Positions 2,786 to 54,511 of a DNA stretch of 64,000 bases are shown one piece after another (the stretch's first letter is position 1; every line of letters begins with the position of its first letter). Location of the stretch: assembly GCA_030295235.1 (NCBI GenBank), contig AP026173.1, forward strand, positions 310,001 to 374,000, given 5' to 3'. A model generated the notes under the pieces. That model did no database searches and was not told where the DNA came from. It saw only the letters and a program-made list of their open reading frames with translations. Both the position numbers and the translations under genes were made by a program. The stretch is from Fistulifera solaris (lineage: Eukaryota; Bacillariophyta; Bacillariophyceae; Naviculales; Stauroneidaceae).

Positions 2786-3265
2786 GTCTGTGATCCTTGA
2801 TTCAAAAGAATGAGGGAAAGCTACCTCAAGGCTGCTTTCAATGACGGAGCGTCCGATTCAGTTCATCATAAATCTTTACAAAAGCACTTTATCTTGAGTA
2901 AACATCGTAGTCCTTTATTGCTTGTTTCCAGTACTCTGTCATTTGCTGCCATCTGTCTTCTTGCTATCGCAAAAGCCCTTATCGTGCAGTCCTACAATCC
3001 ACTGAAACGTTCGCCGATATCTTCCAAAGCAGCTAGTGTGACTCGGAATACTACATTCGAAGAGGTGGTGGTGAATCAAAGGAATCTTGTTCTTGTTTCT
3101 GGTGCTTCGGCAATAACTCGCACTTCAGCTTCAATCGAAATTCATTCATGTCGTTCCTCGCCTGTCCTTTCTACATTTCAGTACTAGTAAGGTGTTCACT
3201 GGCTTAAAAGAATATATAGTCGGGTCACTAGGCCGACCCAGACTCGTCTAGTTGCGTTGCTTGCT
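2786..3265. other. Intergenic region
   Basis: This is the 3' flank of the third small gene and the 3' flank of the convergent glucanase. A long forward open frame exists here, but its composition is not protein-like and it matches nothing in the window. Nothing else is supported. Confidence 0.35.
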
Positions 3266-48873: not shown

Positions 48874-49705
48874 TTATGCATTCATGGCCGGAAACAATTC
48901 ATGACGACTCGCTTGTCCGAAATAAAGACCCGCCACAACCAAGAGTAGATTTTTAGCGGCTTTGTTATCGCTACACACCGCACGTTGTTGTGCGACCTTT
49001 ACAACAAGTCTACGTAGCGTGGCAGCATCTTGTCGATGCAGGGGCGTTTCCAGCCGCGCCAAGAGTGCATAGCACCACTCATAATATTGTAAAATTCCGA
49101 GTTGCGTGGAAGTAGCCAAATGTTGTAAGACACGACGAATCATGACTTGATCCAGTTGACACACCAGTTGCACCGTCGGCCTATGATACCCTTCCGGTGG
49201 CAGTGCGTCTTTCCAGGCGGCGCTAGTAGCCGCGTCGTCGTCGTCAATAGTTTCTTCAACCTGTCCGGTGCAAAACTGGATCCATCCAGCTCGATCTTTC
49301 ATGGTCGGAACGGCCCCCAGAAATCGATGTTCTTTTCCACCGACTCCTTGTTGATGACACACGCTTAAATACTCGCGTAATTGTACAAATTTCTCTAAAG
49401 TTTGCGCAATCCACGCGGTTTCATGGGGAATTCGTTCTTTCGGCAGGGGGAATTTGCGTGGACAATAGATACTGCAGGGAAGCCGCCGACCCGTCCAAAA
49501 CTTCATATCCAGCCTTGTAAGAAGAACGTTTTGCGTGTGAAGAAGCTACTAGGGATGTATCGGGAATACCGCGAGCTTGCTGGGCAACGAGTTGCAAATA
49601 CTCGGAAGCTTCCATAGTATCGACACTGTCAAACGAGATTTTGTTACTGTTATCGTCGTCGTCAAGGCGTCGCCGTTTCGTCGGTAAGCAGGGCTGTTGA
49701 GACAT
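48874..49705 (-). CDS. GEMIN2: Gemin2 / SIP1 (SMN complex) (one frameshift)
   Basis: Gemin2 holds the Sm-protein ring before snRNP assembly in the cytoplasm. Start ATG 49705 (MSQQPCLPTKRRRLDDDD), with a conserved MEASEYLQLVAQQARGIPD block equal to the 'EYLr.v..EA...PDV' segment of Gemin2. The frame breaks between about 49,440 and 49,490. The second frame gives KFPLPKERIPHETAWIAQ, GWIQFCTGQ, and the helical C-terminal domain (RRVLQHLATSTQLGILQYYE, WCYALLARLETPLH, NLLLVVAGLYFGQASRHEL), which is the most recognisable part. About 277 residues, the usual size. With Prp18, it is one of two spliceosome-related genes here. Confidence 0.82.
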
Positions 49706-51188: not shown

Positions 51189-54100
51189 ATGACTTTATTG
51201 AATTCGTTCACACGCCGTTGCGTTCTTCTTCTTTTTTTTGCTGGGTGCCTTTTCTGCGGCAGCACCCGACTTTATGGGTATTCCCACGACGGCCGGACCA
51301 CTCGATGACGCCAAATGCAATGTCGAAGATTTAGAACAAGCCAATGATTTGCAACTGTTTGTCATTTTACAAGAATTGCGCAATACGACCTTTTTTCGCA
51401 ATTTCTTAGTCGACCTTGATCGTCCATGTCCCTTGCAGTCGTGGAGGAAAAAAGACAGCGAGCAGGAAGAAGAGGAGGAGGAATTTGAATGCGGCGGTAA
51501 TGAAGAAGCGGACGAAGATGCTGAACCCGCTTGTCATGTTGATCTTAGTTCGAATAGCAATCCCTTTTCGTCGAATGCCTTATTTTCCATGGCTACTACA
51601 GGATTCGAATCGAAGGCACAAAAGGATACGTTTAAGTGGCAGAAACAAACCGATATTGTGGTCAAAGACGAAGAGCCTTGCGAAGAACCGCTTCTGCCCG
51701 ATTCCTTTTGGATTGATATTTGCAGTCCTCCCGGAAAAACGGCGGAAGAAAAGCTTGTTAACTTGGCCATGAATCCCGAAAAGAATACAGGATACAACGG
51801 GACGCATATTTGGAAAGCCATTTATGAGGAAAACTGTTTAATGGTTGATGATACGAACAGCAAAGAACTGATGTGTCTCGAAGAACGTGTCTTGTACCGG
51901 CTGTTGTCGGGGCTGCACACGTCCACGACATTATCGATTGCGATGAACTACTATCCGCCATCCAAGCGAAAGGGACGAACCGATTACGAAGCCAATCCGG
52001 ACTATTTTATGGAGAAATTCCATGATAATCCGGAACACATTCGGAATTTGCATTTCTCGTACGTCGTCTTGTTACGCGCCTTGCAAAAAGCGGCACCGGT
52101 GCTGCACGATTTTGATATACGCACGGGGGATATTGTGGAAGATGAAACGGCCAAAGTGCTATTGCGTCGATTGCTGGATTCGGCCATTTTGCAGTCTTGT
52201 TCGAACGTTTTCTCGGCGTTTGATGAATCGCTCATGTTTCAGCAGGATACTCGTTTTGATGTTGTTACTTTGCAGAAGAATTTCAAAGGCGTCTTTCACA
52301 ATGTATCGTCGATTTTGGATTGCGTGCAATGTCAGCAGTGTAAATTGCACGGAAAGATGGCCATGTTGGGGTATGGGACGGCACTTAAAGTACTTTTCAT
52401 GAGAGAAGAGCCACCTGTTATGACTCGAAACGAAATTGTGGCGTTTATCAACACTATTGCGAAGTTCTCTGAAAGCATTCGTCAAGTCCGTGAACTTACG
52501 CATCTTTATTTAGAGAAACAAGAACAAAAAGTGGCCAAAATGAAACAGACAGCCGCCCTTCCGCAACATACCACAATTGCAAGTGGGGATGGAATTACAG
52601 TAGACGCTTTGGATGGTGCCGTGGGTCTCATTGCCAAGTTAGGTCAGGAAAATCTTATCGAATGGAAAAGAGAAGCTGAACTTGTGCAGTTGGCTCTGCA
52701 ACGAAATCCAGAGTTGTTGATTTTGGCAAAACATTACGGTAACGACGTGTCGAAATTTCTCGAACTGGCAAGTTCGATCGGATTAGTCGATACAGAAGCG
52801 CCACTTCCAGATGCCATCATCGTAGGAAGTGGTTTGGCAGGCCTATCGGCCGCTCTCAACATTCTTGATCGAGGCGGAAGTGTCGTGATAATCGAAAAGG
52901 AACACCTACTTGGTGGAAATTCGAACAAGGCTAGCTCTGGTATCAATGCGTACGTCTCACCTGAAGAAGCTGGAGCTGACTCCTTGGATTCATTTCGAAA
53001 TGACACTACCCGTTCAGCTGGGTCGTCCGCCCGTCAAGATTTGATTGATGTGTTGGTTACTAACAGTGGGTCGGCTGTCACATGGCTACGCGAGCGAGTT
53101 GGTGTAGACCTTTCGCTGAAGGCACAGCTGGGTGGCCATTCCTCGAAACGTACACATCGGCCAAGCAACGGTATGGCGGGTGCAGAAATCATTTATGGTA
53201 TGCAGAAGGCTGTCAGAGAGTATGAGCAGACTGGTCGTGTGAAAATATTACTTGATAATCGAGTGAGCTCGCTAGTAACGGATGATAACGGTGCTGTAAT
53301 TGGAGTTGAATGTATCAATGCTGGAACAGACGAGGCATACAAGCTACATGCACCTAATGTAATTTTAGCTACAGGTGGATTCGCTGCTGATCGTTCCTCT
53401 GGATCTTATCTGGAACAGTATCGACCTGAATTGTTGAAGTTCCCCACGACTGCGGGCCCATTCTCTACCGGTGATGGAATCTCCCTTGCAAGAACTTTAG
53501 GTGCGGGAACTGTTGACATGAGTAAAGTGCAAGTGCACCCAACTGGTTGGGTCGATCCTAAAGATCCCGACAATACAAGTAAAGTCTTGGCGGCTGAGCT
53601 TATGCGGGGCGTTGGGGGCATTCTTATCAACAAAGAGGGGGACAGATTTGTCAACGAACTCGGAACAAGAGCACACATCACGGAACGAATGCTCTCTCAT
53701 GACCCCATTTACGAGAAAACAGGTGCATGGGATAAGAGTCGGCCGGTACCAACTTTCTCGCTCGTCCTTTCGTCGTCTGCTGCGGAAGAGGCTAAGAAGC
53801 ATGTGGATTTGTACAGTCACAAAGGTTTACTTACTCGAATAGAGGGTGTGTCTCTTCTTGCACAGTGGATGAATGTACCGAAAGCGAAACTAGTTAAGAC
53901 TTTTCAAGATTACCTAAATGCTTCCAAGGCTGGAAGTGATGCATTCGGAAGAGTTACTTTCCGCAATTTACCGGCCGAGTCGTTGGAAAATGAAGTTTTC
54001 TATGCAGGGACAGTGACACCTGTATTGCATTATTGTATGGGAGGGATTACAATTGACACCGAAGGGTATGTGTTGAATGTGAACGGTGAACGAATACCTG

Positions 54101-54511
54101 GTCTGCATGCAGCGGGGGGAAGTGACCGGGGGTGTTCACGGCGTAAATCGACTGGCTGGGAATTCGCTACTAGAATGCACTGTCTTCGGATCATTAATTG
54201 GACGCAGAATTCCGATCGCAAACCCAGTTAATAGCGGGCCCAAACAAGGTCAGGGAATAAAATCCAACAAAGACACCTTGCTACGCAACGTGTCATCAAC
54301 TGAGCTTCAGCAGCACAATACTGAAGATGATTGTTGGGTTGCAATTCATGGCGTCGTGTACGACCTCACAGAATTTGCAAGTGAGCACCCAGCAGGTCCT
54401 GAGTCTATTTGGAGTCTGGCTGGAGGCGACGGAACCGAAGCTTTCGATGCTGTGCACAATAAAGGACTACTTGAAGACTTTGCCGAAGATCGAATTGGTC
54501 TGCTCTCATAA
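51189..54511 (+). CDS. ERO1 - fumarate reductase - cytochrome b5 fusion protein (two homopolymer frameshifts)
   Basis: The core is an uninterrupted frame 51238-54231. Numbering from 51238, ERO1 spans residues about 25-425: C27, FFRNFLVDLDRPCPLQ, C85/C99 as the probable outer pair, TGYNGTHIWKAIYEENC, and the flavin-side CVQCQQC at 362-368. ERO1 makes disulfides for PDI in the ER. A linker of about 90 residues leads to an Osm1-type fumarate reductase: FAD-binding IIVGSGLAGLSAA (about 527-539), ASSGINA, GDRFVNELGTRAHITER, and HYCMGGITIDTEG. In a run of six G (54114-54119) the frame shifts; the next frame continues EVTGGVHGVNRLAGN, the last catalytic Arg block, then a cytochrome b5 domain (DDCWVAIHGVVYDLTEF; HPAGP and FDAVHNKG as heme His). 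At the 5' end, an ATG at 51189 reads a signal peptide (MTLLNSFTRRCVLLLF). One T fewer in the 51232-51239 run joins it in frame. No stop lies between ERO1 and the reductase. Confidence 0.88.

Follow-up and report, generated by a model that had tools for sequence, protein, structure and literature searches.

A single chain of ERO1, an Osm1-type fumarate reductase and cytochrome b5 in diatoms, and its proposed part in fumarate-coupled disulfide formation

The diatom Fistulifera solaris carries a gene whose product combines ERO1 with an Osm1-type fumarate reductase and a cytochrome b5 in a single chain. The gene lies in a stretch of 64,000 nucleotides, here called the window (G000:C27:310001-374000, from a genome of 51.7 Mb in 61 contigs), where its reading frame is broken by two one-base shifts. 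From its sequence and by analogy with yeast, the protein is probably a soluble enzyme of the endoplasmic reticulum (ER) lumen, in which electrons from the thiols of protein disulfide isomerase (PDI) would reach the FAD of ERO1, then most likely the heme of b5, the FAD of the reductase and finally fumarate. A first-pass annotation of the window had proposed both this architecture and an oxygen-independent function for it; the architecture stands, and the function is what we infer from it.

All parts of the gene are on the forward strand. A start codon and a predicted N-terminal signal peptide occupy positions 51189..51231 of the window, and the ATG at 51189 with its hydrophobic start is read one base off the frame of the ERO1 body, the first break being a T8 run (51232..51239). 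The open frame of 1009 codons at 51202..54231 holds ERO1, the linker and most of the reductase. Within it, the ERO1 domain (PF04137, E 2.8e-83; 51355..52488, or C27:361355-362488) includes the shuttle cysteine pair with its long acidic loop, CGGNEEADEDAEPAC (51490..51534), and the active-site CVQCQQC, which is of the form CxxCxxC (52321..52341). A linker with the conserved pattern ...LAKHYGND... (52489..52809) leads to the reductase domain (52810..54175), most of which is matched by FAD_binding_2 (PF00890, E 4.8e-72) in the same frame, and which spans the second break, a G6 run (54114..54119). Its catalytic residues, named after those of Osm1, are H281 (53536..53538), E301 and R304 (53596..53607), R326 (53668..53670), H435 (54028..54030) and, in the shifted frame, R477 (54149..54151). 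The end of the reductase and the cytochrome b5 domain (PF00173, E 9.5e-21; 54299..54478, or C27:364299-364478) sit in the frame of 54083-54511, with the two heme-ligand histidines in EHPAG (54386..54388) and AVHN (54455..54457).

The same genome holds a second copy (G000:C29, L006:3754-7065; the C29 copy) in which signal peptide, ERO1, reductase and b5 follow one another in one unbroken frame of 1103 codons; its counterpart of the interrupted signal peptide reads MTLSNSFTYRRFLRLFLLGAFSAAAPDF. The coding sequences of the two copies agree at 3115 of 3312 aligned bases (94.1%). Compared with the C29 copy, the window copy has one T more in the T8 run and one G more in the G6 run, and the remaining insertions or deletions are two, of 3 and 6 bases. 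A simple Nei-Gojobori count puts dN/dS for the pair at 0.08 overall (ERO1 0.03, linker 0.18, reductase 0.07, b5 0.20). Since both breaks fall in homopolymers and selection between the copies is strong, sequencing error is the likeliest cause of both, with a very recent origin as the alternative. The idea that the window copy is a pseudogene is disfavoured by the same dN/dS of 0.08. The first-pass annotation had counted a single shift, in the G-run, and had placed a signal peptide before the fusion; the G6 shift is confirmed and the T8 shift has to be added to it, and the hydrophobic N-terminus is present in both copies, in frame in the C29 copy and out of frame in the window.

The fusion is widespread among diatoms. 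A search with the C29 copy, in which the 7996 candidates sharing most words with it were scored, returned 377 relatives at E <= 0.001, and the best 120 of these were examined. All 120 carry PF04137, PF00890 and PF00173 together, in lengths of 1077-1388 amino acids, and those with an organism name are all diatoms (Asterionellopsis, Mediolabrus, Skeletonema, Nitzschia, Thalassiosira, Cyclotella, Detonula, Leptocylindrus, Cylindrotheca and Mayamaea, and also Bacillariaceae), four truncated names having been settled by taxid. Eight of them (P0015, P0035, P0072, P0083, P0086, P0089, P0101, P0118) bear MMETSP transcriptome names, and these entries place all three domains on one message in those samples. 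In a midpoint-rooted tree of 121 sequences the labelled raphid pennates are split from the remaining labelled sequences, as would be expected under vertical descent. The two frame breaks of the window copy might suggest an artefact, whether an assembly accident or two adjacent genes taken as one, but this is refuted by the unbroken C29 copy and by the three domains in every one of the best 120 relatives, and its probability is practically nil. The one-chain order first described from the window is therefore upheld, and the search of other diatoms that the first-pass annotation called for finds the fusion in many species, transcript-derived entries included; absence from relatives, which it had named as counter-evidence, is contradicted by the second copy and by at least 120 relatives. 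A viral copy was looked for by scanning viral contigs with two peptide patterns, which gave 35 pattern matches and no relative.

Residue conservation was counted over 121 sequences, namely the 120 relatives and the C29 copy. The PF04137 match covers positions 2-354 of the 354 in the profile (279.8 bits, above the cut-off), and the best match of the ERO1 part in the PDB is human ERO1alpha. The two shuttle cysteines, the three cysteines of CxxCxxC, the six catalytic residues known from Osm1 and Fcc3, and both heme histidines are invariant (121/121); the Osm1 residues (H281, E301, R304, R326, H435, R477) were taken from passages of PMC6242907 and placed by alignment. TIGR01813 scores 369.9 bits in the C29 copy against a cut-off of 285.45, among PDB structures the reductase part matches Osm1 best (5glg/5zyn, E 1.9e-80), and PF00173 scores 70 bits in the C29 copy and 74.1 in the window copy, the cut-off being 23.7, so that the original naming of an Osm1-type reductase and of a b5 with both heme ligands is borne out. 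It may be argued that the reductase uses another unsaturated acid or a quinone-like compound and not fumarate, as the FAD_binding_2 superfamily is broad and the PDB matches include urocanate reductase as well. The six invariant fumarate-site residues, with Osm1 as the best solved match and TIGR01813 above its cut-off, make this quite improbable. The fusion has a long, acidic shuttle loop, spaced C-x13-C in the window against C-x4-C in the stand-alone ERO1 type considered below. By pattern, 45 of the 121 sequences have at least two acidic shuttle-type segments, a count that takes in some other cysteine pairs, and in P0028, P0034, P0053, P0059, P0072 and P0083 (Thalassiosirales-type) an acidic shuttle module C-x14-C (CxG...DxxAEPxC) occurs twice in tandem.

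In the mechanism we propose, the ERO1 part would draw electrons from reduced PDI through its shuttle cysteines and CxxCxxC to its FAD, from which they would cross to the tethered b5 heme as the most likely bridge and continue to the FAD of the reductase, where fumarate would be reduced to succinate. The potential of PDI is about -180 mV and that of fumarate/succinate about +30 mV, and thus the transfer would be downhill. The cofactors, the direction of electron flow, the acceptor and the role of the heme we infer, and independence from oxygen, a lower yield of peroxide and use in the dark or in anoxia would be expected on the same grounds. As no other ER-type ERO1 was found in the F. solaris genome (see below), fumarate-coupled disulfide formation may serve this diatom as a permanent route, drawn on most heavily under low oxygen. 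Passages of PMC6242907 report that Osm1 of the yeast ER receives electrons from Ero1 via free FAD or weak contact, that the pair couples thiol oxidation to fumarate, that its Kd is about 150-200 uM with docking at the place where Fcc3 bears its heme domain, and that more than 20 A separate the docked FADs, a point the authors leave open. These passages agree with the yeast parallel drawn by the first-pass annotation, and the fusion would amount to the Ero1-Osm1 pathway in one chain, plus a heme domain. The three parts could also be joined without being coupled: ERO1 would use oxygen, the reductase and b5 would form a separate lumenal reductase with another donor, and the fusion would only fix dose and place. 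Every domain is indeed complete by its own motifs, and evolution is faster in the linker (mean pairwise identity 0.40) than in the domains (0.67 and 0.69). However, yeast Ero1 and Osm1 couple in vitro (passages of PMC6242907), and the fusion spans raphid pennates to Leptocylindrus, with an ERO1-reductase form beyond the diatoms; we therefore give co-localisation without coupling a modest chance.

The flavin sites bear on how electrons leave ERO1. Of the positions that correspond to FAD contacts of human ERO1alpha, T198, W206, S238, H241 and R294 (P0001 numbering) are invariant in the 121 sequences, and the position of R187 is R in 112, K in 4, H in 3 and Q in 2. Human R287, a flavin contact, is replaced in the diatom fusions by H (66), Y (44), F (10) or Q (1); among 25 mostly non-diatom relatives the position is R in 21, F in 1 and Y in 1, with no match in 2. 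The corresponding stretch of the window is 52030-52056 (PEHIRNLHF). As for the second flavin site of Osm1, K76 is kept in 120/121 and S78 in 121/121, both lying within the FAD loop; K255 is not kept among the 121 sequences, and P162 falls opposite a gap in the single P0001 alignment used. The absence of K255 and the gap at P162 are what a system relying mainly on a carrier other than free FAD would show. They count against a mechanism in which free FAD, once reduced by ERO1, is oxidised again by the reductase, with b5 acting elsewhere, for example in exchange with a membrane partner, and so does the invariance of both heme histidines. Such free-flavin coupling is described for yeast in passages of PMC6242907, and the retained K76 and S78 fit it, though they are part of the FAD loop; its chance appears to be small. 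The heme-bridged transfer to fumarate remains our preferred reading.

For its location, the N-termini and sequons suggest a soluble protein of the ER lumen. A hydrophobic N-terminal stretch exceeds the set threshold in 79 of the 121 sequences; 104 begin with Met and 17 do not, one of the latter (P0001) having been trimmed of its Met. An internal membrane span above threshold appears in 4/121, and no KDEL-like C-terminus is found among the 121. N-glycosylation sequons are present at position 369 in 121/121 and at position 201 in 117/121, and the N-terminus of the fusion is unlike the plastid type. Passages of PMC8678454 list a Phaeodactylum 'fumarate reductase flavoprotein', B7FVF5, with four N-glycosylation sites, which may be the orthologue of the fusion; that data set places most of its proteins in the chloroplast and cytoplasm.

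The genome contains two types of ERO1, on two contigs each (five candidates, all scored). The second type stands alone (L003, G000:C19:858790-859815; L004, G000:C20:769859-770623), and one of its sequences matches FisN_6Hh084 of Fistulifera solaris with 100% identity. The best 120 of its 411 matches (P0122-P0241) show this type in many diatoms, some of which have the fusion too (Cylindrotheca closterium, C. fusiformis and Mayamaea), and its clade in the ERO1 tree has 6 sequences, a support of 100 and a very long branch. Phe at position +1 after the signal peptide is a plastid signal. By a simple scoring scheme of our own, not ASAFind, and with a few entries on either side that are not true N-termini, this Phe is found in 64 of 73 scorable stand-alone N-termini (of 120), the F. 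solaris protein included, and in 12 of 55 scorable fusion N-termini (of 121); the stand-alone type has a basic stretch, a median charge of +2 and a median of 51 residues before the domain, compared with -1 and 23 residues in the fusion. The stand-alone diatom ERO1 is accordingly a candidate plastid ERO1, with what appears to be a bipartite plastid-type presequence. As the only other ERO1 type in the genome belongs to this plastid-presequence family, F. solaris appears to have no ER-type ERO1 other than the fusion. A search with the ERO1 part of the window copy gave 410 matches, of which the best 120 were examined, and 33 of these share 50% identity or more with one of ten diatom fusions. Of the 33, 12 extend into the reductase, 4 stop in the linker (among them P0244 of Nitzschia inconspicua, which we read as a broken gene model), 8 stop inside ERO1 and 9 at its end. 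The last nine (P0245, P0249, P0255, P0277, P0279, P0280, P0281, P0282, P0299), several of them nearer to non-diatoms, may be fragments or cases of intron read-through; because of them, a sole ER-type ERO1 can be claimed firmly for no genome but that of F. solaris. PF00890 has 16 matches in that genome (15 of 92 candidates scored), including an L-aspartate-oxidase-like one on C34 (415 bits against a cut-off of 453), a partial L-aspartate-oxidase-like one on C35 and an SDHA-like one in two exons on C6, whose pair lies on C5, the rest reaching 42 bits or less; among the strong matches tested, no Osm1-type reductase was found besides the two fusion copies.

Beyond the diatoms, the family is seen mostly through its ERO1 part. 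Among the best 120 of the 410 matches, PF04137 and PF00890 occur together in 14, and Pfam confirms the pair in P0257, P0283 and P0289, which have 39-48% identity over ERO1, and in P0308, which places outside the named diatoms in the ERO1 tree and may come from an unsampled diatom or close relative. Entries from Pavlovales, Diacronema, Bigelowiella and Baffinella have ERO1 alone. The linker pattern can be discerned in several non-diatom relatives as well; past ERO1 it is visible in both pavlovophyte entries and, though less distinctly and judged by eye, in Bigelowiella, the Baffinella entry ending earlier. An ERO1-only tree of 51 sequences unites the diatom fusions, the non-diatom fusions and the ERO1s of haptophytes, cryptophytes and chlorarachniophytes in a clade of 37 with a support of 100, a grouping of ERO1 parts in which several members are known as ERO1-only or partial entries; P0257 groups with the cryptophyte Baffinella. 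Compsopogon, the sole red alga sampled, joins the fusion-type clade at a support of only 67, and its placement raises the question of a spread with red-derived plastids. Tentatively, it is possible that in diatoms and older complex-plastid algae the sole ER ERO1 was wired to fumarate through a built-in heme, that oxygen-independent disulfide formation is the normal state of their secretory pathway, and that free ERO1 was shifted to the plastid.

Several points weigh against a fumarate-coupled ER enzyme of this kind. The FAD of ERO1 may still use oxygen, and a supply of fumarate in the ER lumen is an assumption of the mechanism. The position of human R287 is not Arg in diatoms, so the flavin site is not identical to that of known ERO1s. 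The ER location stands on N-termini and sequons, and the N-termini outside the 79 fall below the threshold. The nine entries stopping at the end of ERO1 leave room for a free ER-type ERO1 in other diatoms; other families of thiol oxidases are present in the genome (8 Evr1_Alr and 4 VKOR matches); and the non-diatom sequences end too early to reach the position of b5.

In the window, an OsmC-like gene (PF02566, 50054-50902) lies directly upstream of the fusion gene, and judged by eye the C29 copy has the same upstream neighbour, so that the two look like a duplicated (homoeologous) block. The Fistulifera solaris genome is presumably allodiploid, with which the paired contigs agree. At 48877-49545, on the minus strand, there is a SIP1/Gemin2 match (PF04938, E 4e-26).

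We found no description of the fusion in the literature, as judged by titles, abstract starts and some passages, and the parts consulted of PMC10407231 and PMC5953543 contain nothing on it. The first-pass claim that no protein with this domain order had been described thus holds for the papers that our searches listed; the databases already contain at least 120 members, some named 'flavocytochrome c', and one haptophyte ERO1 entry has both enzymes in its name. What appears to be new is the architecture and the proposed heme bridge, the chemistry being known from yeast in the passages cited. Even there, direct electron transfer from Ero1 to fumarate reductase is at most a possibility, since the contact is weak and the docked flavins are too distant from each other (passages of PMC6242907). 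A covalent fusion that occurs naturally, is widely conserved and includes a heme domain speaks for a genuine coupling. If the reading is true, the heme-bridged fusion would settle by what path electrons pass between ERO1 and the reductase; it also offers one purifiable protein in which coupling can be tested. Diatoms are noted to live in anoxic sediments (PMC3660698), and a plant paper states that in Arabidopsis no such alternative system has yet been identified (PMC9516139). The fusion could explain secretion by diatoms in the dark or in anoxic sediments, and it may offer a route to peroxide-free disulfides for anaerobic protein production.

Among known systems, yeast Ero1 and Osm1 are the same two enzymes, with the same six reductase residues and with oxygen-free, fumarate-coupled disulfide formation, but they are two weakly binding proteins and have no heme domain, whereas the diatom protein is one chain with b5 (compare passages of PMC6242907). 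The Chrysochromulina tobinii entry P0262, 'ero1-like protein precursor fumarate reductase, partial', belongs to the same ERO1 clade and its name gives the same domain pair; it comes from a haptophyte and, at 432 amino acids, ends before the reductase. The stand-alone diatom ERO1 (FisN_6Hh084) shares the ERO1 family with the fusion, and CxQCxKCxLHGK is found in 91 of its best 120 relatives, but it has about 400 amino acids without a reductase, a plastid-type presequence, a separate clade (support 100) and 26% identity to the fusion ERO1 over 254 residues. Fcc3 of Shewanella is a bacterial protein with an N-terminal multiheme c domain. It is of the same reductase family (PDB 1d4c, 1qjd), and its heme domain feeds the FAD; the diatom fusion instead has ERO1 at its N-terminus and b5 at its C-terminus.

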